Below are positions 1-35,367 of a DNA stretch of 40,371 bases, one piece after another (the first letter of the stretch is position 1; the number at the start of each line of letters is the position of its first letter). The position numbers were made by a program, and so were the translations under genes. Source of the stretch: Parvularia atlantis. Taxonomy: Eukaryota > Opisthokonta > Rotosphaerida. The stretch covers positions 1 through 40,371 of the forward strand of contig CALSCO010002245.1 of NCBI GenBank assembly GCA_943704415.1, given 5' to 3'. The notes under the pieces are model-generated. The model saw only the letters and a program-made list of their open reading frames with translations. It did not search any database and was not told the origin of the DNA.

Positions 1-1522
1 CCCCCCGAGCTCAACGCACGAGCAAGGACATAGTCGCGGTCCTGCAACGCCGAGGGCGACTTGATGACGGTGTAGAGAATGTCGTACTTGCTGTTGACGA
101 CGCCCAGATCGAGCCGGTCCACGTGCAGTAGCGCTGAGTCCCACACCTTGCGCTTTTCCATGTCGTACAGCACCGCGAACGCCGTCATCGGCACGCTCGG
201 CACCACCGCAACCGAGCGCACGCGGTCGATCGGAGACGTGTTGCCCTGCGCGCACCGTCAGACCTGTTATTCGCACGCAGACGAAAGAACGCACCCCGCG
301 CACGTAGACCGACACCAAGTTGCCGGCCTTGCCCGGTAGCGCCTCGCTCATCTGCCCAAAGACGCCGTAGCCCTGCGTCGCGAGCGTCCACTGCGTGTCC
401 TCGGCCTCGGTCAGGAAGCTGTGAATGTCGTCGTCGGTGATCACGGGCACATTATCGGCTGTCGCACGTGCGCGCGCGCGTGCGGGTTCAGCACCGCGCA
501 TCGCCAACCGCTAGCGCGCACGCACGGAACGCGACCGAGGGCGACGCCGCCGCCGAGCTGTTCTTAGACGACAGCGATGGCGCCGACCCGGGCAGCGGCG
601 CGGCGGGCCCGTGGCCGGCCATTGCGTCGCTCAGCTCTTGGATGATGCGCTTGAGCTTGTGCACCTCGACCTGCAGCGCAATGTTTTCCGAGCGCACTTT
701 CTCGTTGATCTTGTCGACGTTGCGCAGCCAGTCGACGGCTGCCGTGCACGCGTCAGGCCGCGCCAAGCGAGCCGCTGTCCCGCGCCACGCACTCTTGCGG
801 TAGATGACCGCCTTGGAGATCTTCTCTTGCGTCCGCAGCGTCGGGATGAGCTGCTTAATCTCGGACATGGCGTCACGCAGCTTGGCGCGCCGCTTGCGCT
901 CGGCCGCGTTGCGCGCGACCTTGTTGGGCTTGCCGCCTTGCGCATGCGTGCGTGCGTCAGGCATCCCAGCGCGGCACGGGCAGCGGCTCGCACACACCAG
1001 GCGACCCCGTGTCGGACTGTGAGCGCGCGCGCGATGTGGTCAGCGCACCCGTCCAACGCGCGCGTGGCACAAAGCGCACCGTGTGCGACGCGCTCGGGGC
1101 GCCATCCTCGCCCGAGCCCGAGTCGTGAGCGTACGGGCCGTCGTCGTGGCTGTCGGGCGGCGTCGTCCAGTTCTCGGCCCCGAGCATGCTGATCGTCTCG
1201 TCGGCCGCGGCGAGCAGGCGCGCCCCGGCGTCCTCGCTGCCGCTGTCGCTGCCGCCGCCGTGGCCGTTGTCGCCGCCGAGCTGGCTGAACGTGCGCTTGA
1301 GGCCGCTCACGCCCTCGTCGTAGTCAAACAGCGACGGCGTCGGCAACGTCAGCGGCATCAGGCCTGGATTGAGCTCGGCCATGACGATGGCGGTCGCTGC
1401 CGGACCGTCAGCTGCACGTGCTCCACGTGGGACGGACGCGACGCACCCGCGTTCTCGACGTTGTCGGCGAAGGCCGAGCCCCACGGCTGCGACGGCTGTA
1501 GCGTCGGCGTGGAGAAGGACAT
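1..1522 (-). CDS. bHLH-zipper plus START domain protein (3' end outside window)
   Basis: The ATG is at 1522-1520. Inferred exons, read on the minus strand, are 1522-1447, 1396-1080, 1016-998 (19 bases), 936-793, 738-526, 458-304 and 245 to about 20 or beyond. The first six total 924 bases, so the frame is kept. Exons 3-5 encode a basic region (RNAAERKRR) and helix-loop-helix (MSEIKQLIP, KTVDWLRNVDKI) running into a leucine-spaced coiled coil. The basic region has the Glu and Arg used to read E-boxes, but Arg where MAX-type factors have His. Exons 6-7 encode a START lipid-binding fold (RVRSVAVVPSV, KRKVWDSALL, LQDRDYVLAR). The likely role is a nuclear, lipid-responsive transcription factor; the ligand is unknown. 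A GTGCGT at 19-14 may be the next donor, so the remaining C-terminus lies to the left. If the 459-525 intron were retained, the bHLH protein would end alone within it. Confidence 0.8.
1397..1446 (-). promoter_or_regulatory. Cluster of three E-boxes inside intron 1 of the bHLH-START gene
   Basis: The 50-base first intron (donor GTGCGT, acceptor CAG) contains CAGCTG at 1409-1414, then CACGTG at 1415-1420, and after three bases another CACGTG at 1424-1429. These are seen directly. CACGTG and CAGCTG are the classic targets of bHLH-zipper dimers, so self-regulation of this bHLH gene is an inference. Confidence 0.45.
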
Positions 1523-3067: not shown

Positions 3068-3141
3068 ACGTGTACTTTGATTGCTACAGCTAGCGGACAC
3101 CGTTTCCGCCGCCACCCGGCCGCCTTCGTCATCCGCCCGCG
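3068..3141 (+). promoter_or_regulatory. 74-base gap between tandem PGAP4-like and UBE2O genes
   Basis: The 3' end of the first gene and the promoter of the second must both fit in 74 bases or overlap the coding regions. A TGTAC occurs 3-7 bases after the stop (3070-3074). No other signal is evident. Confidence 0.4.
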
Positions 3142-6100
3142 ATGTCGCAGCCGCCTTTGCCGCCGCGGCCGCGGGTGCGCGCGCAGCGCCTCGTAACGCG
3201 CGAACGGCTCCTCACGCGGCACACGTGTGTGCGCGCGCGCGGCCAGATCGACCTCGGGGACCTCGCGTTCGACCGCGCCACGCGCACGCTCGGCGAGGTT
3301 ATCTCGACCTTCTTCGACGAGTCGCAGGACCTGAACGAGGAGGACCTGCAGCAGCTGGACCAGCTGGCCGAGGTGGCGGGGCACGGCCACCCTTATCGTC
3401 GCACGCTCACGACGCCGCGTTCCCCCCCCCCGCCAGCCGCAGCAGGGCGAGGTCATCCTGCGCTCGCTCAACAACGACAGGCTCGTCCTCGCCAAGGAGA
3501 CCGACGTCGACCTCGTCGACCGCGCCTTCGAGCTGCGCGAGGCCGTCGAGTGGATGGACGCGCGCCACCGCCAGGTCGGTGCGGTCGTCGGCGTGCGCCG
3601 CTTCGTCGACCTGGTAGCGATGCCGGAGCTGCAGAAGCTCGGGCCCGACGCCGTCCCGGCTTTCATGTGCGCGCGCGCCTGCCGCCTGGGCGCGCTGATC
3701 GGTACGGCGCACTGAGCCCCGCGCACCACAGGGAGGCCGTTGCGAGGGGCACCAGCCTGCCGCAGATCGAGCGCAACGTCGACGAGCGCCGCCTCGACTT
3801 GTACGAGCCCTTTGCACCCGGTGCGCGCTCTCGCGCTCGTTGTGCCGCACGGACGTGGTCGCTGACCTTCCGCGCGCGTGCAGACGACCAGACCGGCCCG
3901 CTCGACCTCGTCCTCGTGGGTGACCACACGGCCTACACTGTGCACGAGCGCGTCGACAGCCTGCTAATGTACTTCCTTATCGACGACTCGGCGTGCATCG
4001 TGCGGCCGCGCTGCTCGCCGCACCTGCCCGGCCTGACGCGCTGCGCCCCGAGCAGGTCGAGGACTGCATCGACGTCCGACCCGTTGTTGCCAACACTCTG
4101 TTCAACTTTGTCTTCTGGCCCGGGATGGTGCGCGAGCGCTGTGCTCCGCGCCGCCCGTCAACGCTCGCACCGCTCCCTGCAGCTCGTCACCGCGCCGTCG
4201 CGCGTGCTACGTGATGCGCGCTGGGTGCGCGGCAACTGGTCCGCCGACAAGAACGCCGCGCTCGTGCTGGAGGTCGGCGTGCACAAGCTCGAGGTACGCG
4301 CGCTTGCCGTGTGCGTCAACGCCACGTCTTATCGTACGGCCGCGCAGCTGGACTTGCGCCTGACCAACACGCTCGTCACGCCGCCGTACCCGATACCCGA
4401 GTCGCTCGACCTCGTCTTGGCCACGGCCACCGTGCCTGTCCGATCGCTGCCGTGGTCGCGCAAGCAGCCCAAGGGGCTCAAGGACCTCGTCGTCATCACG
4501 GCCGACGAGCAGCTCCGCCCCAACGGCTACCGCATCACGCCCTACGGCGTCGCCTACAACCGCCGCCCTGCCATCTTTTGCGGCGGCGAGCTGCCCGAGC
4601 CGAGCCCGTCAGTGCGTCGTGCTGATCTGCATGGTTACCATGCTCATGCGTGCGTCTCACCAGGTCACCGACCAGGAGGCCACGGCGGCGGTCAAGGCGC
4701 TGTGGACCGCCGACCGCCGCGACGCGCCCTCAAACATGCCCAACCTCACTTTCAAGCACGTCAAGGTGCATGTGCACGCATATAAGCTCGCCGCTGCACT
4801 CGCTCACGCTTGCCTGCGCAGATGGTCGTTCGCACGCGCACCGTCGTCAGCGTCGAGTGGCAGGACGGCACCGTCACGCACAACATCGACGCGTCGCTGC
4901 TGGCCAACGTGCGCGCGCGTGCCTGCCGCATTTCGCTCATTGACCCGCGCGACCCGTCGCAGTGCACCGACCCGGAGCGCTCGTTCCCCATGCCCGGCTC
5001 GGTCGTCACGCGCGTGCACTCTGGCGAGCAGGTGTGCACAGACGCAACGCGTTGTGCAATGCACACTGCTGACGCCGACGCGTACTGTCAGGCGAGCGCG
5101 CCTACGCCAGAGACGCCCTCGGGCGTCGTCGTGCGCGCGAGCACGCAGGAGCGCCTTGCAACGGTGCAGTGGCTCGAGAAGCACGACTTTTTCTCGCTGC
5201 CGGTGCGTGCTCCTCTTGCTGTGAGCGTTCAACACGGTCGGCTCACGCGCGCGCGTACAGACGGCGAGCGGCCCAGAAGAGATGTCGACGTACGAGATCG
5301 CGGCCGCACCGTTCTGGCTCTTTCAGCCCGGCTCGCTATGCACGCGCACGCGCGAGGACGTGCGTGCCCAGTGAGCCACCAGCGCACATGGGCAAACGCG
5401 CGCGCACGCGTGCGCACAGGGCGAAGTCGTGCCGACGACGGAGCAGGAGCTATGGGTGCTCGAGCGGGCGCGGCTGCTCGGCCACGGCTTGCCGCCACCC
5501 CTCGCGCTCAGTGCAAACGTGCGTTGTGCGCCGCTGCGGCATGGGCCGCGTCTGACCGACCCCCCCCCCCCCCCAAAAAAAAAAAAATTCGCTCGTGCCG
5601 CAGATCCGCACGCACGGCGGGCGCCAGTGGGACGGCAAACCCGTGCCGTGGATCGGTGAGGCGCTTGGGACGCTCGCCGAGGCCGGCGTTGTGGCCGTGC
5701 TGTGGGCCAACAACACGTGCGGCGCAACAGCCCAGCTGCGCGCGTGCCCTACTGACACACCGGTGCAGGTACTCGCTGCTGCGCTTCGAGGCGGCCCTGC
5801 CAGTGTCGATGCTCGGCGACGATGGGGCTGACCCGGCTGCCGACGGCGCCGAGCTGGACACGGGTGACACGGACGAACCGCAGTGGGTCACGATCGTCCC
5901 GCCCGCGGGCGGCGAGGGCGAGGCCGAGGGCGACGACAGCGAGTGGGAGACGGACGACGAGGCCGAAGTGAGCATGGTCGAGGACGACATCGACAACATG
6001 GATGGCGACGCACATGTGCACGAGCCTGAGCCCGAAGACGAGCCCGAGCCCGACCCTCAGCCGGTTAGCATGGACGTGGACGCGGTGCCAGCCTCGTCCG

Positions 6101-7613
6101 CGAGCGTGCCTGCACAACAACAAAAGGTGCACGCGCGCTGCATTTGTGTGCGTGTGTGTGCATGTTCTCATGTCGCTGCGCTGCAGACGATGCCTGACCG
6201 GAAAACGCCCGGAGCGGCCGCTGCCGAGGGCCTGCTGCGCTTCGAGCAGCTTGAGAGCGCGCCGGCCGACCATCACTTCCTCAGCAAGACGCGCTCGCCC
6301 CTGCAGGACGCGGGCAGCAAGTGCGTGTCGGCCGCTGGCCAGCGACCGTGCTGACGGCGGCTGCTCTACAGGGCGCGCCGGCGGCGCATCCTGCAAGAGT
6401 ACACGTCGCTGGCGTCGTCGCTGCCCGAGGGCATCTTTGTGCGGACATACGAGGTGCGTCGCGTCCCGTGTGCGCTTGACACAGCTCAACCCCACCGCCG
6501 TGCACCAGGACAACCTCGACATCATGCGCGCCGCGGTCATGGGCCCCGCCGGGACGCCGTACCAAGACGTGCTCTTCTGGTTCGACTTTTACATGCCGCC
6601 CGAGTTTCCGCACGTCCCGCCTGAGTGCGTCGCAATGCGCATGCCGGCCAGCGTCGCTCACATGTGCGCGCGCCGCGGCAGGTCGTTCTTCTACTCCAAG
6701 ACAGACCACTGGGGCAACATCAACCCGAACCTATACACGACGGGCTACGGTGCGTGCGCACGGCAGACTGCGCTGCCGCACGCGCTGACGACGACACTGC
6801 GCGCAGTGTGCCTGTCGCTGCTGAACACGTGGAAGGGCGAGGGCAGCGAGCGCTGGAGCAAGGACTCGTCGCTGCTGCAGGTGCTCGTGTCGCTGCAGGT
6901 GCGCCGCTCAAGTCGATCGATGGCTGGCCCCGCTGCTGAGCGCGTGCGTGCGCTTGCAGGGACTCGTGCTCGTCAAGTACCCGTACTACAACGAGCCCGG
7001 CTACGAGCGCCTGCGCGGCACGACCGACAACACGGCTGCGATCCTGTACAACGTGCGCTCCCGTGCGCCCATGCGGTGCGGTGCGGCTCACGCGCGCGCA
7101 TCGTGCAGGAGCGCGTGTACATGCTGGCGGTCAAGGTGCGCTGCGCCACGCTGTCGCCGCTCGCGCTCATGGCTCTCCGCGCGCGTAGACGGCCATCGCC
7201 ATGCTCAGGCACCCGCCCGAGGACCTCACCGAGCTCGCGCGCGAGTACTACGTCAAGCGCGGCGTGCTGGCGGCGCTCAAGCTGCGGTGCGAGAACCTGA
7301 TCGGGGTGCGCGCGCCTGCCTCCTCGTTGATCGATGTCCACTCACTGACTCACTGCCTCACCTTGCCCGCGCGTCCGCCAGGACAAGCAGCAGAAGGAAG
7401 ATGACGGCTCGGCCATATTTGGTGCGCTGCCCGCGCTCTTCAGCCGCGCACGCTAACTCCGCTCCGTCTGTCGCAGGCGAGGAGCCCGTCGTCGTCAACG
7501 TGTCGGCCGGATGCAAGAAGATCCTCCAGGGCTTTGTGCAGACCATGGCTGAGATCCTCACGACCGCTGCCGCCGCCGAAACCGCCGTTGCGGGAGGGAT
7601 AGGTGGCATGTAA
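3142..7613 (+). CDS. UBE2O: UBE2O-type E2/E3 hybrid ubiquitin-conjugating enzyme
   Basis: Exons inferred from frame and homology: 3142-3372, 3446-3666, 3732-3820, 3884-3999, 4056-4127, 4183-4611, 4664-4765, 4822-4908, 4963-5031, 5092-5202, 5261-5359, 5420-5518, 5604-5716, 5769-6126, 6187-6320, 6372-6453, 6509-6624, 6682-6749, 6807-6898, 6960-7052, 7109-7135, 7189-7305, 7382-7421, 7477-7613. They total 3102 bases (1033 residues). The N-terminal half has the UBE2O conserved regions (VSVEWQDGTV, EEMSTYEIA). An acidic stretch follows at about 640-705, and a UBC fold at about 800-950 (GPAGTPYQDVLF, INPNLYTTGY). The catalytic Cys is about residue 867 (codon 6809-6811), just after an intron; then LLNTWKGEGSERW and LVKYPYYNEPGYERLRG. 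UBE2O ubiquitinates orphan ribosomal and nuclear proteins. Introns at 4909-4962 and 5032-5091 are multiples of three and could be retained; a further possible one is 3175-3246. Confidence 0.93.
5519..5603 (+). other. UBE2O intron carrying a C15A13 homopolymer block
   Basis: This 85-base intron runs from GTGCGT to CCGCAG. After a CTGAC branch-like site it contains 15 C (5560-5574) followed directly by 13 A (5575-5587), where a polypyrimidine tract would sit. It is one of the longest introns in the gene. Confidence 0.8.
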
Positions 7614-10600: not shown

Positions 10601-13600
10601 GTGAGCGACAACGCCGCGACTGCACGGTCGTGACGCGCACCTGCTGGTACTGGAACAGGTCGCGCAGGCGCCCGTCGGCGTCGTTGTCGCCCGTGAGGCG
10701 CTTGACCGGGTCGCCGCCCTCGGGAGACTGCTCAGGCCACGGCTGGTCGGGCGAGGCGGGGTCGAGTGACGCGATGGAGAGCTGCCGCTTGACTGCGAGC
10801 GACTTTTGCTGCTTCCACTGCGCACGCGCACTGCGTCAGCCCTGCGTTTCGTTGTACCGCGTGCACGGAAGCGCGCCTGCTTGGCCGTGTCGTTGAACGC
10901 GATCGCCTTGGCAGCGTATCGCACCACGAGCTGGTCGTTTTGCAGCTCGGGAAATTGCCGCATCAGACTCTCGACTGCGCGTGCGGCCGTTCAGCACCCT
11001 AGGCATTGTCACAAGCACGGCGGCACACACACCGAGCGACACGCGCGCCTCCATCAGCAGCCACTCGACGATCAGGTTCGGCTGGCCGGCAAGGTGCTTG
11101 AGGCGCTGCGTGCGGTCGTCAGCGACGAACTGCAGACCATGCATGCGCGATCGCATGTACCTGCTGGTCGGCCGCGCTCATCTGCACCAGCAGCTTGATG
11201 CCGAGCTCCTCCGAGTACAGCCGGTTGTACGTCTCAAGCGAGAGGTCGTTGCGCAGATGGTTGAGCAGGTAGCTGCGGGTTCGATGTCACGGTCGCAGTC
11301 GCGCGCACGGGCCTGAGCACGCACCTAACGAGGAATAGGCGCGTGTTGTGCGCCTCGAGCTTGTAGAACAGCACTATGCGCGCGCGCGCGCGCGTGTCAG
11401 CAGCACCACGCCACGCAACGGCGTCGTCGCACCCTCGCAGATGTCGATCGCGGCCGTGCCAAGCTCCTCCAGCTTGCGGAACGCGGTAATAGTGTCGCCC
11501 TTGGCCAGCAGGTCCTCCAGGTGCCGCATCTCGATCTCCTTGAGCAGATTCTCGGGCAGGTTGAGCGCGAGCGTAAGCTTCTTGGCGACGTCAAAGCGCC
11601 CTGAGACGTTCGGCCTCCATCAACTTCGCCCGAGCGCGCCAGCACAAGACGCACCCGGCGCCAGCGCCAGTAGCGTCCGCACGACCGCGACGGGGTCCGC
11701 CCGACACGCATCCTCCAGATCCTTCCACTGCGGGTACGGCGACTGCGTCTTGGGCGTGGCCGGTGCCGCAGCCGAGGTGGCCGACGTCGCCGTTGTCACG
11801 TTGGTCACGCGCAGCACGGCCTCGTACAGCTGGAAGCGCTCGTACGTGTCGTGCACGCGCTGCGCCAGCTCGCGGTCGTGGAGCGCCCCGGCGGCAGAGT
11901 GGCACAGCCGCAGCAGGTTCAGGCATTGGTCGAGCGACCACAGTGGCAGCCACTGCAGCACGAGCGACACCGCGGTCTGCCGCGGACGGTCAGCGCTCGC
12001 GCACGACGCAGCACCGGGCGCACCTTCTTGTCGCGGATGCGCACAAGGTATTTGGCGGCCGCCTTGGGCTGCTTCTCGGCGAGCGCGACGAGGAGCGAGT
12101 CGGGAGGCGGCGAGGGCACGTGTCCATCGTCAACAAGCCGCAGGGCTTCGACGTGCTTGCCCTCGGCAACAAACTGGTCAAACAGCTGCGTGGCCGCGCC
12201 GTGTCAGCCGCGCGTGCACAGCAGTCGTGCGCACCCGCGCGTAGAGATGTTCGACTGGGTCCATGCCGCTCTCGATCTGCAGCAGCTGCGGTTGGTCCGC
12301 CGCGAGCCGCGCCACAGACGGCAGCACGGCCGACGCCGGGGCCGCGGGGTGCTGCTGCTGCTGCTGCTGTTGCTGAGTGCCCTTGGTCGGCGAGCTCTGG
12401 CGTGAGGTGCTGGCGGGCGTGCCGGGCGTGCCGGGCGCTGCTGCTGCACCGCTCTTGCCCTTCTTGGTCGGGCTGATCGTGGACGCCGCGGCAGCAGCCT
12501 GCTGCTGCATCAACCGCTGTTCGCGCTCGGCTGCCGCGCGCCAGTTCAGCACAGCCGGGCCGGTCGTGCGCTCGCGCACCAATGTCGCGGATGATCTGCG
12601 GGTAGCATTCGTCGCACACGCGCTCGGGCTGGTCGCTCTCACCCTCGGGGATGACGACACGGCGCTTGGAGCACGTGTCGCACACGACTTTGCCACAGGC
12701 GCGGCAGTGGTGGCGCCGGCGGAACGCGCCAAAGTCCTCGCCGCCAACCATGCACTTGGCGACCTGTGACGCGTCCGTCAGCGCAACGCGCGCGTCACAA
12801 GGAGGCAACGCGCCTCGTTGTCCATGTGCCAGAATGAGCGATCGGGCACCCACTTTCTCCGCGCGACGACCGGCGCGGCCCCGCCCGGCTGCGCCTCCGC
12901 GAGCCCGATGGCAAGCGACGTATCAGCGAGGAAGCCGAAGCGGTGCCGCATGTAGTGCAGCAGCACGGCGTTGTCCTCTGCCAGCGACAGCGCCAGGTCG
13001 AGGTGCGTCCCGCTGCGCTTGAGCACGTTCACGGGGTTGTGCGTGAGACACACGAGCGCTGGTGTGCGAGGTGCGAACGTCAGCAAGACGCTGCACCGTG
13101 CGCAGAGTCGCACCTGCCAGCAGCGGTGAGCGGTCTTGCAGATACGTCAGGACCTCCTCCGTCAGCGCGTACTGCGCCACGCCCGACCCGCCGCCAGCGA
13201 CCGGCCCGCCTACACGCATGTTGCAGCGAGTGGTGAGCCCGTGCGGGACTGCCAACCGTCAGGCGCACGCACCGCGGTTGCGCGCCACCGTCATACTCAT
13301 CGCGCCCGCGAGCGACCGCGACGACGCGAGGCCATCGGCCAAGGGCAGGTCTACGTTCTCGACGGCGGCTGAGACGTCCAGCTCGGGCACAGCAGCGAGC
13401 GCAACGCGCAGGATCACGGGCGCGGTCGTGAGCGTGCCGAGCATGAGCGGCCGCGACGGCTGCGTCGACGATGCCGTCGCAAACAGCGGCATGTCTGCGG
13501 GCTCAGCGTCAGAGCGCGGCCACGGGTACGTGCGGCCACGGGTGCGGCCACGGGTGCGACCACAGGCGCACCAGGCAGGCGAACAGACACAAACTGCAGC

Positions 13601-19127: not shown

Positions 19128-19210
19128 GGCTGGCGCCTGTCTGCGTGCGCGCGATTGCAGCGATGGCCCCGGAGTGGCGGAAGTTGGTTTTGTGACAGTC
19201 GCATCGGCGG
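19128..19210. promoter_or_regulatory. 83-base divergent promoter of ZFYVE26 and the receptor-like gene
   Basis: Only 83 bases lie between the outermost ATGs (149 if ZFYVE26 starts at 19061). The two transcripts must share the promoter or overlap at their 5' ends. No TATA or other core element is recognisable. Confidence 0.6.
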
Positions 19211-19241
19211 ATGCGCGTCGTCGCGCTCGTGCTGCTCGCCC

Positions 19242-19274
<33 letters not shown>

Positions 19275-22200
19275 CGGCGGCGGCGGCGGCGGTGGCGGGG
19301 CCTGTTAACATCACGATCGTCGCGGCCGGCCCCGCGACCAACCGCGGCGCATACTGGGCGGCCGGGACGCACTGCTGCATCGCGATGTGCCTCGCGGCGG
19401 AGGCGCTCAACGCGCGGCCCGATGCGGCTGTGACGGCCGCGATCGCGTTCGTCAACAACGACGGCGCGGCGACCGTGTCTGTGCGCGAGGTCAGCGCGCG
19501 CGTGCTCGCTGCGCCCGATGCCGCCAGCGCGACCGTCGGCGTCGTGGCCGACTACTACTCGCTGCTGGCCCAGGCGCTGCAGAGCGTGCTGTCGGCCTAC
19601 GCCGTGCCCCAGATCGGCTACGGCTCGACCAGCCCGACCCTGTCCGACAAGGCTGCCTACCCGACCTTCCTGCGCACGGTCGTGAGCGACACGGCGCGCG
19701 GGCCTGTCTTCGTCTACCTGCTCGCGCGCTTCGGCTGGAACGAGGTCGCCGTGATCTCGTTCAACGAGCCGTTCGGCCAGGGCCTGCGCCAGTCGTTCGT
19801 GACGGCCGTGACCAACGCGCCCACCGGCACCGCGCCCTCGATCATCGTCGACTACGCCTACCCGTTCCGCAGCGCGACCACGCCGGACCAGTTTGCGCTG
19901 CTGACCGAGGCCCTGAACGGCATCCGCGCGCAGCGTGTCCGCGTCATCCTCCTCTTTGGCTCGCTCGTCACGCCCGTGCTCGACATCGCCGCCAACATGA
20001 GCATGAACGCGCCCGAGTACCAGTGGCTCCTTGCCGACCTGCAGGAGACGATTCACCTGGGCCTCGTCGTGGTGCAGAACAGCGGCGTCGGCGCAGGCTC
20101 GCCGGCCGCCGTGGCCGCGTTCGACGCCGACTTCCGCGCGGCCTATGCCGCCGACCGCTTCCCGCAGTGCAACGCACTCGGCCTCAACCTCACGGCCGTG
20201 CTCAACGGCGCCGCGCTCTCCCGCGACATCTACACCCTCACCGCGTACGACGCCGTCGCGAGCTACGTCCGCGCCGCCGAGACGCTCCTGGCCGGCCTGC
20301 CGCCGGACGCGACGAACGCGGACGCGGCGGGCCTGCTGCGCAACGGTACGGCGATGCTGCGCACGCTGCTCGCGCTCAACTTCACGGGGTTGAGCGGGCC
20401 GCTGCTGTTTGTCGCGAGCGGCGACGTCGAGGCCGGCGTGTACGGCGTCGTGATCAACGCGGCCGGCCTGCCCCGGTTCCAGCAGGCGATCGGCACGATC
20501 ACGGTGTTCCAGGGGCGCGTGGCCGCCGTGCAGCTGCTGGACGAGGACCAGATCCTGTGGCCGAGCGAGAGCGGCCCGATCCGTGCGCCGCGTCTGTGCG
20601 ACCCGGGCTACGAGCTCGCGACCAACTCGACCCAGTGTGTGCCGTGTCTGCAGGGCTACTACGCGCCCACGCGCGAGAGCGTGTGCCTGCGATGCCCGAC
20701 CGGCTCGGTCAGCCGGCAGCCCGCGAGCAGCGCGTGCGACACGTGCCGCACGGGCACGAGCGCCAATGCGGTCAGCAGCGACTGCATTGTGTGCAACACG
20801 ACGACCTACGCGCCCGGGCCCGGCCTGACACAGTGTATCCCGTGCCCGGCCAACTCGCGCACGAGCGTGCTCGGCGCGACGAGCGCAGACCAGTGCACGT
20901 GCCTGCCCGGGTTCTACGCCGAGGGCAACACGACCGGCGCGGCGCTCACGTGCGTGGGCTGCAATGAGGGCGCCGTGTGCTCGGGCGAGGCGCTGCCGTA
21001 CGCAGCCGATGGCTTCTACCAGCAGAGCACGAACCGGTTTCTGCGCTGCTACCCGGCGAGCGCGTGCACCAACAACACGTGCGTGCCACCACTGACGGGC
21101 GAGGTGTGCGCGTCGTGTCTCGACGGCCTACTTTACGACCCGGCGACGGCGGCCTGCGTCGAGTGCTCGCTTGCGGCGTCGGTGTGCATCGTGCTGCTGG
21201 CGGGCCTGGTCATCGTCTTCATCGTCTACTGGATCTCGCGGCTCAAGTATCTCCCCGTGCGGCACCGCAAGCTCACCAGCGGCCTGAACGCGGGCATGAG
21301 CACGGGCACCAACGTGGGCGGGAGCAGCGCGGGCGTCGTCGTGATCGTGCCGGGCGCGGACAGTGCGGCAGCTGCCGAGGCGGCGCCCACCGTCGACGCG
21401 GCCGATGGCAGCGACAGCGACAGCGACTGTGAGGACGTGCAGCCGCGCCGCGTGAGCGCCTCGTTCGACACGGTCGAGATGCAGCCGATGCCCATCACCG
21501 CGGCGGCGCTGGCCGTGCCACGCCTGAGCGTGACGGCGGCGGCGGAGGAGGGCGTGCGACAGCGGCGCGCGTCGGTGCAGCGGCCGTCGCTGGCCGCCGC
21601 GGTGCCGCGCAAGGCCGCCGCGTCGCTCAAGCCCGTGCCGAAGGAGCGGTCGTTTGGGCGCGCGCTCGTGACCGACATCAGCCTCCTGGTCGCGTTCCTG
21701 CAGATCCAGGCCATCATCGGCGACTTTGCGCTCAAGCAGTCGTCGACGCAGGCGACGTTTGTGACGCTGCAGTTTGCCCTGGGCGACCTCCAGCGCATCT
21801 ACACCTGCCTCTTCCTGTCGTTTGGCGACGTGGCCGACCCGTTCTGGTCGGTGCTGCAGTGGAAGCTGAGCTTCCCGCTGCTCGTGCCGTGCTTCCTTGC
21901 GCTCTTCGCCGTCGTCGACCAGCTGCACCGGGCCTACGTACGTTACTGCTCGGGCCTGACTGCGTACTTTGCCGAGCGCTTCGAGGCGGCCGACACGCGG
22001 GCCGCGGCCGCGCACGGGCGCCGCTCGCTCGACACGACCCTCGCGTCGGTGACGCTCGAGCCCAGCGCGACGGTGGCGACGATTACAACGCGCTCACTCC
22101 AGACGGTCGGCATCACGACGCGCTGGCTCATTAGCAACTTTGCCGCGACGGTCTACCGCGGCGCACGCCAGCGCGTTCGGCACCTGCTCACGTCGTTCCA

Positions 22201-23242
22201 CCCGATGTCGCTCGCGGCCACGATCAACACGCTACTGCTGCTGGGCGACTACCTGTACCTGTTTGAGGTGCACTTGGCGCTGTCGGTCTTCGACTGCTAC
22301 GAGCAGCCCGACGGCACGTTCTCGCTGCTAGAGAAGCCCGACGTGTTCTGCTACACCGACACGTGGGGCCGCTTCAGCCGCTCGGCCTACGCCGCGGCGA
22401 TCCTGTACGGCCTGGGCGTGCCGCTGCTGTTCACGTGCTGCCTCGCACTCAAGTACTGGTACGACCGCCAGCGCGCGGCCGGGCGCGTGTTCTCGTCGGC
22501 GTGGCTCGATCTGGATACGGCGTTTGCGTGCCTCGTGGCCAACTACAACGGCTCGTCGTTCTGGTGGCACGTCGTGATCCAGGTCAAGAAGATTTTCGTC
22601 TCGGTCATCGTCGGCTTCATCACCGATATCGGCGTGCGCACGATCGTCGCCGTGGGCGGGCTGGGTCTGATCCTCGCCGCGACGCTGTACCGGCGCCCGT
22701 TTCTGTTCCGCACGGGCCAGTGGCTCGAGACTTTCTCGCTCGTGGCGCACCTGGTCGTGCTCCTGCTGGGCCTGCTACAGCACTATGGCACGCCCGTGAA
22801 CGGCGTGGTAGCGGTGGTGACGTCGGACGAGGACGTGGTGATCAACGCGCTGGCCGTGGGTGTGTTTGCAGTGACGGCGGCGGTGTTTGCGGGCGTGATC
22901 GCGTACGACGTTTGGCGCTTCATGAAGTCGGCCTCGGCGGGCTGGCTGCGACAGCAGCGGCGGCTCCGGCGTGAGCGCATCAACGAGTTTGACGAGCTCT
23001 TCCAGATGCTGCACGTGGACGACTTTGTGCGGGCGATCGAGGGCATGTGGGAGGACCGCCAGCTCGAGACGCTGTACCTGCTGCGGCGCCTCGCACGCGC
23101 GCCGTCCAAGCACCCGGACGGCGTGCACAGTGCGCGCGCATCATTTGCGGCCGTGGACGGCGGTGGCGGTGGCAACGGCGGCGACAGCGCGTCCATGGCG
23201 GCGATGGCACGCGATGTCTCCGTTGAGCCGCTCAAGGTGTGA
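19211..23242 (+). CDS. Receptor-like protein: ANF/type-1 periplasmic-binding domain, cysteine-rich repeats, multipass membrane region
   Basis: One uninterrupted frame of 1343 residues. A signal peptide with a long Ala run (about 1-29) leads to a type-1 periplasmic-binding (ANF receptor) fold at about 30-440 (APDAASATVGVVADYYSLL, VPQIGYGSTSPTLSD, FGWNEVAVISFNEPFG). Ephrin-receptor-like cysteine repeats (GCC2/GCC3 type; CVPCLQGYYAP, CIPCPANS, CTCLPGFYAEG) cover about 460-650. A first membrane helix lies near 654-676, then a Ser/Asp-rich loop to about 810. Further helices start near 818, 885, 1005, 1060, 1117, 1143, 1175 and 1210, including VIQVKKIFVSVIVGFI and YRRPFLFRTGQWLETFSLV. This last region resembles a multipass module seen in many protist and zoosporic-fungal receptors. 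A ligand-sensing plasma-membrane role is inferred. It is not a classical 7TM layout. The absence of introns over 4 kb is striking beside its neighbours. Confidence 0.82.
19242..19303 (+). repeat. GCG-rich triplet run encoding poly-Ala in the signal peptide
   Basis: A near-perfect (GCG)n run, interrupted by ACG and GTG, encodes the hydrophobic core of the signal peptide almost entirely as alanine. Confidence 0.85.
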
Positions 23243-23362: not shown

Positions 23363-24912
23363 TCACTTGTTGAAGCATGACCAGAAGTCCTCCGTCTCAA
23401 AGCCGTCGAGCACTCGGCTGATGGCGATGCGCTTGTTCGGGTGGTTGGTCTTGTAGATGTGCTGAAGGCCAAAGTCGACGCCCTTGCTGCGCTCCTTCTG
23501 GTCGGCGCCGCTACCGATCCACACAAACAGCTGGTCGCCCTTGTCCAGCAGGAAGCTGCGTGCGGTGTGGATCGTAAGCAAGCGCCTGTTTTGCTCGGCT
23601 GCGTACGCACACGTCGCCGTGGTCGAGCGACGCCTTCTCGACCGGCACCTCCTTGATCGCCAGGCTCCAGAACCAGTTCTTGTCGTGCACGTGGTACAGC
23701 TTGGTCGTGTACGGCGGCGGGTCGGGCATCTTGCGCGGGATGGGCTTGCGGCCGCCGAGCAGCTTCCAGAACTCCTTGGCGGGCTCGTCCGCGTCGTCCT
23801 CCTGCACAAAGAACACCTGGCGTTGCCGCAGTGCGTGCATGTCATCATGACGTGTGAGCTGATGAACGGTCGCACCTTGGGCTGCGGACTGCCGCGCTCG
23901 CTCTGGATGTCGCTCGTGACGTTCTGCGCCTTCATGCGCTCGCTCGGGTTGCTGTACTTGCCGATGAAACTGCGCGAGGGGCTCAGCGCAGTGGCAAGGA
24001 GGGCAGGCGGCACGCAACTGGAACAGCTTCAGGCCCGTGTCGAGCAGGAACACGTCCGAGCTGTTGAGCGACTTGGCTGTGACGTCGACGTCGCGCACAA
24101 CGACGCCGCCACGCAGCGTGCCGCGCATGTGCAGCCTGTGCCGCACAGTCCGCGTCAGCACGTGCGTAGTCAGGCACGCGCACGCACAGCCGCGTCTGGT
24201 ACTGCGCCGGACCGACATGGCGGAAGCCTGCGCAGCCGCGATCAGCACAACCAACGATCGGTGGCGCGACAAGGCGCACCGGTCTCGATGCCGCCGTCCA
24301 TCACGCGGAAGACCTTGAACAAGTTGAGGAACGCGCGCGACTCGGAGCCGTCGACCTCGCGGTGCTGCACGGCGACGCCGCGCAGGTAGTCGTCAAGCTG
24401 CGAGCGAGATGATGCGTTCAGAACAGGAGCGTTGCCGGTGGGCGACCGTGCGCGCACCTCGACCGTCTTGTACGCGGCCGTGCCGTACTCATCCTGCGTG
24501 GCCTCGGCGCCGATCCAGAAGTAGATCTCGTGGAAGAGCTTGTCCGGGTTGATGTCGGGGCGCTTGTACCTGCGACCGATGTGAGCCGTATGCGGGCGGC
24601 GCGCACTCGGCATACGTGTTGAGCACGATGTACGCGTCGCCGCGGTGGAACTGGCCCTTGAGGTTCTCGGGCCACGGCTTGACCTGGAACTTTTCGATGC
24701 GCCACACGCGCGTACCCTCGGAGAGGCCCGCGCCGAGCCACGCCTGTTGCTCCGCCGCGCGTCAGCGTCGTTGTTGTGGTTGTTGTTGTTGTTGTGAATC
24801 GGAGGCGCGCCTTCTCGGTGTCGGCCGCCGACTGCTTGAGCTTCTTCTCCACGTCCGACCCAAACAGGGCGATGTTGCTGTCGTCGAAGTTGATCTTGGT
24901 TGGCTTGAGCAT
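23363..24912 (-). CDS. Severin/fragmin-type actin-severing protein (three gelsolin repeats)
   Basis: Exons on the minus strand: 24912-24811, 24743-24607, 24569-24458, 24397-24280, 24227-24188, 24135-24019, 23969-23876, 23816-23611, 23555-23363. They total 1119 bases, giving 372 residues, close to the 362 of Dictyostelium severin. Repeat G1 (about 40-130) has RVWRIEKFQV, HRGDAYIVLNTY and FWIGAEATQDEYGTAAYKTV. G2 (about 150-240) has VFLLDTGLKLF and FIGKYSNPSERMKA. G3 has EFWKLLGG, then VFLLDKGDQLFVWIGSGAD and ISRVLDGFETEDF. Family members sever and cap actin filaments in a calcium-dependent way in the cytosol. The first intron is GC-AG and the second only 37 bases. It diverges from RalGAP-beta across 305 bases. 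Confidence 0.93.
24570..24606 (-). other. 37-base intron in the severin gene
   Basis: The donor is GTGCGC and the acceptor TCGCAG, with a CTCAC branch-like site between. Removal joins TYAE to YKRPDINPD and preserves the frame of the nine-exon model. It is the shortest intron supported here. Confidence 0.8.
24744..24810 (-). other. GC-AG intron 1 of the severin gene with an ACA/TTG repeat
   Basis: The donor is GAGAAG followed by GCGCGC and the acceptor is CAACAG, 67 bases. No GT lies near the junction, and the whole-gene length is a multiple of three only with this splice. A TTG-rich repeat (24768-24795 on the plus strand) fills the middle, and a GCTGAC branch-like site follows. Confidence 0.8.
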
Positions 24913-25217
24913 TTTGCTGCGGGGCGTGGGCGCGTGCTGCTGGGGCGGACGGTCGTGTGGCTGGCGTGTCACGCTTCAGCGACGCGGGCGCCTGCCGGTG
25001 CAGCACGACGAGGGGCAGCAGCCACTTTATAGCAGCCACGAGGAGGGCGGCACCAGAGCGAAGCACGCAACACACGACAAGAAGCACCGCTCTCGCCCTC
25101 AACGCGCGCGCGCGCACCGCACCCCAAGACGACGACAACAGGGCAGAAAGCGGTGCATACGTCACCCTGTGACGCAGATAGTGCGTGCGTGTACACAAGT
25201 GTTGCAGCACTCGCGCG
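24913..25217. promoter_or_regulatory. Divergent promoter of severin and RalGAP-beta, with TATAAAG facing severin
   Basis: Of these 305 bases, 25025-25031 read TATAAAG on the minus strand, 113 bases upstream of the severin ATG, a plausible TATA box with a short leader. The RalGAP side shows no TATA. A CA-rich, CG-repeat stretch lies at 25100-25130. Confidence 0.4.
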
Positions 25218-28200
25218 ATGGCCGCCGTAGCCGTCTCGCCGCCGCCGCCAGCCCTCGCGCCGCCGCGGCCGCCCGTCGCGGGCGTGTTCCCGCCAGGCGT
25301 GCAGAAGACGCTCGTGAGCGAGGTCACGGCAGTACTGCTCGCCCCGCCGGCGCCCGGCGCGACCGTCGCCGCGGCCGACGTGCTGCTCACCCCGGTGCGC
25401 CGCCGGCCGCTCCTTGGACAACGGAGGCCAGTTAAGCGCGCCCGCCCGCAGGCGCACGTGCTCTGGTGCATGGACGTGGTCGGCCAGGGCTTCGCGCTGC
25501 CGATCGAGGAGAGCGCGCTGATCACGTGCGCGATCATCTCCTCTTCCAGTTGCGCCGTCGTCTGACTGCGACATGCGCAGCAACTGCACCGCCGTGTACC
25601 GCAGGTGGCTGCTGGACGCGCAGTCGACGCCGGCGAGCTTCGTGGCGCACAAGCAGGTGTGACACGCACGTGCGTGTCACACACCGTTGCTAAGCGGCGC
25701 CGCCTCGCGCAGTTCTTCTGGCAGAAGATCTTCCACCACTTTGCGCTCCTGTTCCACCCTCGCCTCCCGCCGCGGCTCTCGATCACGACGACGCCGGCAG
25801 CCGCGGCGCAAAACAGCAGGTCTGTGAGACTGTGCACGCGCTGCATCGGTGGCTGAGTGCTCGGCAGCGTGTACACGGCGCTGCTCGTGCGCCACGTCGA
25901 TCTGTGCAAGAGCGTGCTCGAGGTGCTGCTGCTCGTCGGCCGCACCGTCGCGAGTGCGCTCACGGAGGACACGTGGCGCGACCTGTTGACGGTGCGCACG
26001 CCCACGAACCGTGAAGGCGCACGCAGATCACACCTGCGCGCACGCGCAGGTGCTGATCGACATCACCGACTCGCTGCTCGTCTCGTCCACGACCATGGCC
26101 GACGAGCTTTGCCCACACCTCCTGCGCGTGCTCGTCGAACTCTGGCTGCGCTCACAGATCCTCGCGACCGACATGTGGGGCCAGCTGAGCCACTACTTTC
26201 GGTGCGCGATGTGCACGTTGCTCACGGCCAACGCTGATCTGCGGCGGTGACAGACGCTGGGTGCACCGCCTGCCGGTCATCGTGCACCTCAGCGCGACCA
26301 ACGTCGCCCTAACGCAGCGCGTCCTGCGCGCGATGTACGGGCCGATCGAGGGCAGCACCGCCGACGTGCACCTGGCCATGTGCGTGCTGCTGATGCGCTC
26401 CACGTGCGGCTGACACGCACCCAGCGGCGGCGAGGGCCCGCGCGCCGGCATCGACATCCCCGACACGCAGTTCCTGTACCTGGCGTGGTGTGCAGCGCGT
26501 TACTCGTGCATGCTCGCCCCGCACAAGCTGAGCACGCACGCAGGCACCGCTTCCTCAACATGATCGGCGACCCGACGACGCTGCGCCCGGCCGTCTTCTC
26601 CGAGGCCATGCAGGGCATCGCGCGCCTCGTCGACATGTTCCTCGCCGTGGACTCGGGTCAGACATTCTACGACCCCTCCACGCTGCTGGAGGCGCGCAAG
26701 TCGCCCGACGGCAACACGATCCTGCACATCCTCGGCCACTGGCTCTTCCGCGCGGCGACGATGAGCGGCGACCCCGAGTGCGCGCGTGCTGCTCGCTGTG
26801 TCACAGCGGCCGCTCACGTGTACCCGCAACAGCGTCGAGGCCGGCCGTGCCGTCGCGCTCGGCTCGCTCTGCAAGCTGTTCAGCCACCCGCAGCGGCGCA
26901 ACCCGTTCCTGTCGACCTACGTCGACCAGGTGCGCCTGACGCGCGTGCAGCGTGCCGGGCTCATGCGTGCTCGCAGTTCTTTGTCGTGTTTGTCAAGGCG
27001 CTGCGCGAGGAGCCGCAGGCGCTGGCCTCGGTGCTGCTCAACAGCGAGTACCTGTTTGCGTCAAGCCTGCCGGGTCTGCGCGTCCTGGTGCGTCCGTTTG
27101 CGTGTACCTGGGCTTTGAAGATGGCTGATGCGCCCGCACCGCAGATTCCGCCGGTCGTTGTCGCGCTGCGGCGCATCCTGCCGCGCAAGTCGCTCGGCTT
27201 CCGGCCCGTGGTCCAGGAGGAGCGCCTGCGCCGCGCGTGCATCCGCATCCTGTCGATGGTGCGCGCTGCCGCCGCGCGCTGCAGGCGCATGTGTCTGACA
27301 TGTACGATGCGCGCAGATCATCGCCGTGCCGAATCACTTTGGCTCGGCGCCGCTGATCGACCGCACGGGCCTGAACGACCTCGTAGTCGCAGACCCGAGC
27401 ATCGAGAAGGTACGCGCGCGTCGCTCACGCGCCAGCTGCGTGACCCGCCGCGTTGCAGACCATTCGGCGGCTGTACGAGGCGTCGCTGCAGCGCATGAGC
27501 GAGTTTGCCGACCTGCGCCCGCACATCCTTGCGCTGCTCTGGCAGGCACGCACCCGCGCGTCCGCTGCCATCGTCGCGTGCCGATGTGATCGCAGGCGCT
27601 CGTGGCAGACTCAAGCTCGGCCAACCAGCGTCTGCTGCTTCAGGCGATGCTCGCGTTTGTGCTGGATGACCGCCGCAGCACGCCGGGCCTGCTCACCTCG
27701 TTCGTCAACCTGCTGCTCGACAAGCTGCACCAGCGCCAGCTCGGCCACGACGTCCAGGCCGAGATGCTTGACATCCTCCAGGCGCTCGTGGTGCACCACG
27801 GGCGCAGCGAGCGCGAGGACGAGGTGCGCGCACGTACACGGCAGCGGCAGCGCAGTGCGCCGTAACACACTTGCGCGGGCGACAGAACGCGTGCGCGCAC
27901 GTCTCCACCGTGCTGTGCCAGTTTGTGGCCTTGGCGATGCAGGACGAGCTCGCGCTGATGGACGGGCTGGTGACGAAGGCCTTTGGTGCGCATGACAGGC
28001 GCCGTCGCTTGCTGGCAATGCTCACGCGCCCGCGCGCGTGCAAGATGTGCTCACGGGCTGGACGCTGGCGGGTACGTGGGCCGTGGCGTCGCAGCAGGGG
28101 CGCGACGTGCTCGGAATGGTCTTTGCGGTCATCGGGCGCGGCATGGCTTTTGCGCGCCGAGCGGCGGCAAGCGAGGAGCGCATGTCGGGTATCGAGCAGG

Positions 28201-34051: not shown

Positions 34052-34075
34052 AGAGTTTGAGCCTTGTCGTCCCGA
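34052..34075 (+). other. 24-base gap between two same-strand genes
   Basis: The unknown gene's TAG ends at 34051 and the Brl1 ATG begins at 34076. Neither a separate promoter nor a 3'-end signal is visible in the gap. Confidence 0.75.
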
Positions 34076-35367
34076 ATGGCGTGGTTCAGAGCCGCGGCGC
34101 GATCAGACGGCGACGCGGACGCCGACGACGCGCACGCCGACGGGGCGGCGGCGCGCGTGAGCCTCGGCCGCTCACGCGAGGCGCCGATGCACCTCGACCC
34201 GCCGCCGACACCGCCGCCGCCCGCGTTCGTCACGGCGTCGTCGGCCTTCACGTTCTCGGCGCCGCCGTCGCCGTCGCCGTCATCCGCGCCGGCCACGTTC
34301 AGCTTCAGCGTCGGTAGCCCTGCGGACGGCGGAGGCGGCGGCGGCAGCGGCAGCGACGGTGGCGACGCGAGCCCGCCGCAGCGGATGGCGCCCGTGCGGC
34401 GCGTGACGCCGCGGGAGGCGACGATGGCGCGGCGACGGCGCGGCGGCAGCGGCGGCGGCGGCGTGTTTGCGATGGCGCCACCGACCTCGCCGCCAGGCGT
34501 CACGCATCCGGCAGCGCCCGCGGCCACGGCGGCGTGGCGCGCGTGGGACAGCAACCTGCCGCTGGTGGTCAGCGGGTATCTGCAGCTGCTGCTCAACGTG
34601 GCGCTCGTGGGCGCGATGCTGTACCTGGTGTACCACGTCGCGACGACGATCAAGAAGGACGTGGACCTGCGCGTGGACGAGTACTCGTCCGGTGCGGCGG
34701 CGTGCCGGCGTGGCGACGTGGCGGTGTGGCGTGTGCGCTCACCGCGGCAGCGCAGAGATGATGGCCAAGATCTCGACGTGCGCCAAGTACTACCTCGAGA
34801 ACAAGTGCGAGCCCGGCAGCCGCCTGCCGGCCATGGAGAAGCCCTGCTCCGACTGGGAGATGTGCGTTCCGCGCCCGGCTGGGCTGCGTTGGGTTGGGTC
34901 GTGCTCGGGCGCTGGCTGAGCTGGGTCGGCTGGCTCGCTTGCCGCTGCGCTTGCTCCACGCTCGTTGTCCGCACCCTTCGCTGTGCCCGCGCCTCCTTCC
35001 GCCCAACTCATCCCGGCGCACGGTCGGCAGATGCATGAACCGCGACCCGCGCGAGATCGACCGGGCGCGCGTCTCGGCCGAGACCTTTGCGGGCATTCTC
35101 AACAGCTTTATCGAGCCGCTCTCCGTCAAGACGATCCTGTTTCTGCTGCTCTTTGCGCTAGGCCTGGTGCGCGCATCGCATTCTGGCTGGTCGACGCGTG
35201 CTGATCTCGCTCGTGCGCAGGTCGTGCTGTCCAACCTCGCCTTCAACCTGCCCCAGTGGCGCGCGCAGCCAGCACCCGCGCCCGCACCCATCGCGCCCGC
35301 ACCCGCCTACTACTACCCCGCGCCGCCCATGTCGCTCCCGCCCGCGCCGATGTACACGCGCTTTTAG
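34076..35367 (+). CDS. BRL1: Brl1/Brr6 nuclear-envelope protein
   Basis: Exons 34076-34691, 34756-34861, 35031-35166 and 35221-35367 sum to 1005 bases (334 residues). A disordered Ser/Pro/Gly-rich N-terminus leads to a membrane helix (SGYLQLLLNVALVGAMLYLV). The perinuclear segment carries four cysteines (STCAKYYLENKCEPGSR, then PCSDWEICMNRDP). The characteristic ARVSAETFAGILNSFIEPLS precedes a second helix (SVKTILFLLLFALGLVVL) and a Pro/Ala-rich tail. This is the Brl1/Brr6 domain, whose paired disulfides and amphipathic helix assist fusion of inner and outer nuclear membranes during nuclear-pore assembly in organisms with closed mitosis; it is absent from animals and plants. Intron 2 (34862-35030) is 169 bases, the longest fixed in the window. 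The ATG at 34076 was chosen because only a TTG lies upstream in frame. Confidence 0.92.

Follow-up and report, generated by a model that had tools for sequence, protein, structure and literature searches.

The window analysed here, a stretch of 40,371 nucleotides of Parvularia atlantis (contig CALSCO010002245.1, hereafter C545), starts at the first base of its contig, one of 616 in a eukaryotic assembly totalling 16.25 Mb, and the GC content of the window ranges from 64 to 72% in 2-kb steps. On the minus strand, a gene model leading from an ATG at 1522 to the contig end comprises seven exons and six introns and yields a single open frame of 386 residues. In this frame a basic helix-loop-helix (bHLH) domain with its leucine zipper is connected by about 35 linker residues to the initial half of a START domain.

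Exon 1 (1447..1522, minus strand, as are all the features of this gene) carries the start codon at 1522-1520 and is followed by intron 1 (1397..1446, 50 nt, GTGCG..CAG). Exon 2 (1080..1396), recognized by the gene model and the codon score, encodes an N-terminal region that appears by eye to be acidic and rich in Ser and Gly, and the gene model separates it by intron 2 (1017..1079, 63 nt, GTGCG..CAG) from the 19-nt exon 3 (998..1016), the weakest exon of the gene, which in turn is followed by intron 3 (937..997, 61 nt, GTGTG..AAG). The basic region, helix 1, the loop and the start of helix 2 are located in exon 4 (793..936), as indicated by the Pfam HLH match and the alignment to SREBP-1a from PDB. 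The remainder of helix 2, the leucine zipper and the linker are encoded by exon 5 (526..738), which is supported by the gene model, Pfam, the PDB alignment and the heptads read from the sequence. The intervening intron 4 (739..792, 54 nt) contains no stop in the frame of the gene; its retention would insert 18 extra residues into helix 2 and would probably disturb dimerisation. Intron 5 (459..525, 67 nt, GTGCGT..CAG) links the bHLH-zipper half to the START half, which consists of exon 6 (295..458), the presumed N-terminal part of START according to its position ahead of exon 7 and its codon score, intron 6 of the gene model (246..294, 49 nt, GTGCG..CAG) and exon 7 (20..245), which corresponds to positions 41 to about 115 of the 207 positions of the START profile. 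The 3' end of exon 7 may be formed by a GTGCGT donor at 20 or by read-through to the contig end.

The exons lie where the original prediction had placed them, and intron 459-525 is identical in the gene model described here. The prediction had also pointed out that the six exons upstream of the last START splice sum to a multiple of three, and their length is indeed 933 nt, which demonstrates a phase-0 junction and is little proof when taken alone. Donors of the six introns read GTGCG in five cases and GTGTG in one, and the acceptors CAG in five and AAG in one. As a yardstick, 11 exon junctions of two actin-related genes of the same genome were chosen by eye; six of them were solved with at most one residue added and the remaining five were ambiguous or unsolved. 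The solved introns measured 60-76 nt, with the donors GTGCG (4), GTGTG (1) and GTTCG (1) and the acceptor CAG in all, so that the introns of the bHLH-START gene (49-67 nt) are similar to those of conserved genes in the same genome. Coding potential was judged by a codon score, with 914 codons from Arp3 and the ANF-receptor gene as the training set. In six of the seven exons (0.23 to 0.45; 0.36 for exon 1) the predicted frame scored positively and the highest of the six frames; exon 3 scored -0.39, calculated on 6 codons. Values above zero were also obtained in reverse frames of four exons: 0.32 for exon 1, 0.02 for exon 2, 0.48 for exon 3 and 0.11 for exon 5. For all six introns, intron 459-525 included, the score was negative in the three forward frames.

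The bHLH domain was detected in the spliced protein by the Pfam HLH family with an E-value of 1.8e-11, and the nearest PDB sequence to the bHLH-zipper part was SREBP-1a (E 4e-11), followed by SREBP-2 (1.8e-5), INO4 (2e-5) and Myc (3.5e-5). A heptad zipper begins directly after helix 2, as is characteristic of bHLH leucine zipper proteins, with V193, V200, L207, L214 and L221 read from the sequence at the d positions and L190, N197, N204, V211 and I218 at the a positions. The basic region had originally been described as of the E-box type. This description applies to Glu150 and Arg154, which are retained and which we take to be the pair of helix 1 residues that contact the bases; it fails at the basic-region His, which is replaced by Arg146. 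E-box-binding bHLH proteins are characterized by this His together with two base-contacting helix 1 residues (PMC6329520), a combination that is incomplete here, and the DNA target of the protein is uncertain because the His is Arg. At the position of the SREBP-1a tyrosine the alignment places R153, and Arg instead of the SREBP Tyr is given as the usual state of E-box-binding proteins (PMC3894159, PMC6329520).

The three motifs CAGCTG, CACGTG and CACGTG stand next to one another within intron 1 of the bHLH-START gene (window 1409-1429). This is the single CACGTG pair at most 20 nt apart among the 41 sites of the window, and the 35 sites in other loci of the same genome, covering 58.6 kb, included no such pair; the pair was noticed post hoc, and the site density alone leads to an expectation of about 0.8 such pairs per window. 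Self-regulation of the gene through this pair is possible.

Recognition of the START half depended on how the sequence was cut. The Pfam START family matched the 85-residue frame at 3-257 with 23.4 bits (E 4.3e-5; 22.5 bits in the search of the organism's own genome), above the cut-off of 22 bits, and remained under this cut-off in the three other of the four cuts: 19.7 bits for the 75-residue exon (E 0.0006), 18.7 bits for the 127-residue spliced START part (E 0.0012) and 15.9 bits for the 386-residue spliced protein (E 0.0083). A profile built from the genome's other START segments, five out of six being used, found the START part with an E-value of 8.3e-8. Among 2000 shuffled sequences the lowest E-value was 0.098, and the top five of this search contained no decoy frame out of 449. 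The START profile match spans exon 7, which identifies it as part of the N-terminal half of a START domain (with the below-cut-off Pfam cuts noted above), and the WDS and RD positions common to other START domains are kept in the alignments. Exon 6 alone gave 0.5 bits against STARD10, which is not significant, and the 85-residue frame folded alone reached a pLDDT of 45. Contig C545 holds approximately the first half of the domain and the rest, including the C-terminal strands and helix, would lie beyond base 1; a DNA search with the 150 bases at the contig end matched only itself. Among the seven START loci seen, this is the sole one at a contig end. Another START piece of the genome, on contig C91 (21066-24176), adjoins a sequence that by eye resembles a hot-dog thioesterase, an arrangement presumably resembling that of ACOT11/12.

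The junction between the two halves can be bridged by five frame-right GT-AG pairs of 40-140 nt, any of which results in a fusion, and the pair 525/459 is the only one of the five with both a genome-typical donor and a genome-typical length. In 20,000 trials at random places, a frame-right GTG[CT]G..CAG intron measuring 45-80 nt was present in 6.8%, and in 1.5% when the donor had to be GTGCGT; the evidence of the intron 5 junction taken alone is therefore suggestive. Separate transcripts would require the bHLH transcript to stop within 459-525, where retention of the intron brings its frame to a stop at 488, and START to be transcribed separately from an ATG present in its frame at 501. In that case 501-488 would be shared by both frames and no space would remain for a 3' end, a promoter or a 5' leader, and this arrangement is further opposed by the exact fit of a genome-typical in-frame intron and by the codon score, according to which 459-525 is non-coding in the three forward frames and exon 6 is coding from 458; two genes appear very unlikely. 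Hardly more attractive is the production of both forms, in which splicing sets lipid control by yielding either the fusion or, with intron 5 kept, a bHLH-zipper protein without START. The intron is short and its retention would end the protein early, shortly after the zipper, but any short intron could be retained, and we consider this explanation equally improbable. The position of START at the extreme end of the contig is what an assembly chimera of a bHLH gene and a START gene might produce; however, the join lies within an intron of the genome-typical kind, whose phase agrees on either side, and the searched pieces have no near-identical second copy, the other matches being at most 39% identical, so that a chimera can be regarded as highly improbable. 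Because the junction and codon evidence are combined with too little room for two transcripts, the bHLH-zipper and START are very probably encoded by one fused gene, and the fusion proposed in the original prediction thus has good support from introns, codon usage and profiles.

The likeness of the protein to SREBP-1a extends to the zipper pattern, as two Asn residues and the ENxxL motif are present in the bHLH-START protein as well. SREBPs are defined by the hallmark tyrosine (PMC6329520), and membership of the bHLH-START protein in this family was rejected on account of R153. In contrast to SREBP and the fungal Sre1-SrbA, the protein lacks both the hallmark Tyr (R153) and the basic-region His (R146) and carries START instead. 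None of its 386 residues belongs to a hydrophobic segment, the C-terminus of the protein lying beyond the contig; transmembrane segments after the bHLH domain are described as absent from some fungal members of the SREBP family (PMC6329520). A separate SREBP-type protein with the Tyr and two hydrophobic segments is encoded on contig C198. Among the bHLH proteins of the same genome it ranked first of eight segments in one search for the nearest relatives of the bHLH-START protein, and a segment on C431 was slightly ahead in another. Descent of the bHLH-START protein from SREBP may thus be treated as a lead, not as a result. INSIG also matched twice in the genome, both times on the same contig, and the sterol-sensing domain was matched on three contigs. 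Since an SREBP-type protein, INSIG and sterol-sensing-domain matches are all found in the same genome, the fusion would constitute an extra input and is not obviously a replacement for a missing SREBP system.

A parallel to the architecture is provided by the plant HD-ZIP III/IV factors (ATML1, PDF2, GL2 and PHB), in which a DNA-binding domain, a leucine zipper and START occur in the same order; in the bHLH-START protein too the zipper lies between the DNA-binding domain and START. The DNA-binding domain of the plant factors is a homeodomain, whereas a bHLH is found here, and no homeodomain was among the seven families detected in the Pfam scan of the spliced protein at E-values up to 1. The START domains of the HD-ZIP IV factors ATML1 and PDF2 have been reported to bind very-long-chain ceramides and to influence turnover and the level of the dimer (PMC10126025). 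With regard to structure, the START part was most similar among PDB sequences to 6ser, of the STARD10/PCTP type (E 0.008; 0.059 with the whole protein as query), a comparison that covers only half of the START domain. To our knowledge, STARD10 has no DNA-binding domain.

Our preferred reading, to which as a whole, lipid gating included, we assign a probability of about 0.6, is that the gene encodes a bHLH-leucine-zipper transcription factor with a linked START domain, whose architecture is shown by the sequence evidence. Judged from its family, the protein would dimerise through the HLH and the zipper, and the dimer would bind an E-box-like site, for which CACGTG is a weak prediction in view of Arg146. 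By analogy to ATML1 and PDF2, a lipid held in START would change dimerisation or stability, and may stabilise the zipper dimer; coupling between the zipper and START is possible because the linker from the zipper to exon 6 measures about 35 residues. Transcription would then track the level of the START lipid, as the analogy with the plant HD-ZIP START factors suggests, alongside the organism's membrane-type SREBP. Direct sensing of a sterol or phospholipid by START, as originally envisaged, is plausible on the same analogy, and the likeness to SREBP and STARD10 suggests phospholipid or sterol target genes. Rather unlikely, in our estimation, is a real fusion in which START has lost its lipid sensing and serves a structural or protein-binding role; the divergence of its sequence, apparent from the low score of the spliced part, and the absence of its C-terminal half from the contig would be compatible with such a loss, and the retention of the WDS and RD positions argues against it. 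More tentatively, the lipid-gated bHLH-START factor might be a soluble protein of SREBP-like descent, in which START replaces both the membrane anchor and SCAP/INSIG sensing, convergent with the plant HD-ZIP START proteins. If true, the SREBP of the organism would be joined by a second lipid switch that consists of a single protein.

The original prediction knew of no described bHLH-START family, and this is consistent with our literature search of open-access main texts, in which such a protein was absent both by name and by joint Pfam accessions. No NCBIfam family reached its cut-off. In the organism's own genome START matches occur on at least seven contigs and HLH matches on at least 21 (E-values up to 10), and among the matches listed C545 is the only contig in both groups. 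As for signs of its lineage, the genome gave one Fungal_trans match and no Chitin_synth_1 match, the latter in a search whose controls gave none either, and a piece of Arp3 scored better against 1k8k (bovine) than against 3dwl (fission yeast), which is of little help. Searches with the whole protein, residues 140-232 and residues 300-386 returned no relative at E-values up to 10, which is weak evidence of rarity because the content of spliced eukaryotic proteins in the collection searched is uncertain. An HLH and START architecture may already be listed, unremarked, in InterPro or in eukaryotic proteomes. The combination of START with homeodomain transcription factors has been called unique to plants (PMC8455945). 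Against this background of a described plant homeodomain speciality, an independent fusion with a bHLH-zipper would mean that zipper and START were combined on more than one occasion. The bHLH-START protein would represent a lipid-responsive transcription switch contained in one protein and simple enough for testing in yeast, a surprising and testable proposal, yet one that concerns a single gene of one genome, cut off by the contig end.

Several other matches to protein families are located in the window. On the plus strand, a frame of 1348 residues (19196-23239) combines an ANF_receptor domain (E 1.7e-36), an Ephrin_rec_like match and several hydrophobic stretches; it resembles a receptor of the class C GPCR type, but no 7TM family matched. 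A tSH3-B_UBE2O match under its cut-off and a UQ_con match at 3094-7297 (plus strand) perhaps belong to a UBE2O-like gene of several exons. The minus strand encodes a FYVE zinc finger at 11993-12922 (E 3e-19) and a Gelsolin repeat at 24245-26062 (E 9e-6), and a piece of a Brr6-like domain (E 4e-6) is found at 34061-35035 on the plus strand.
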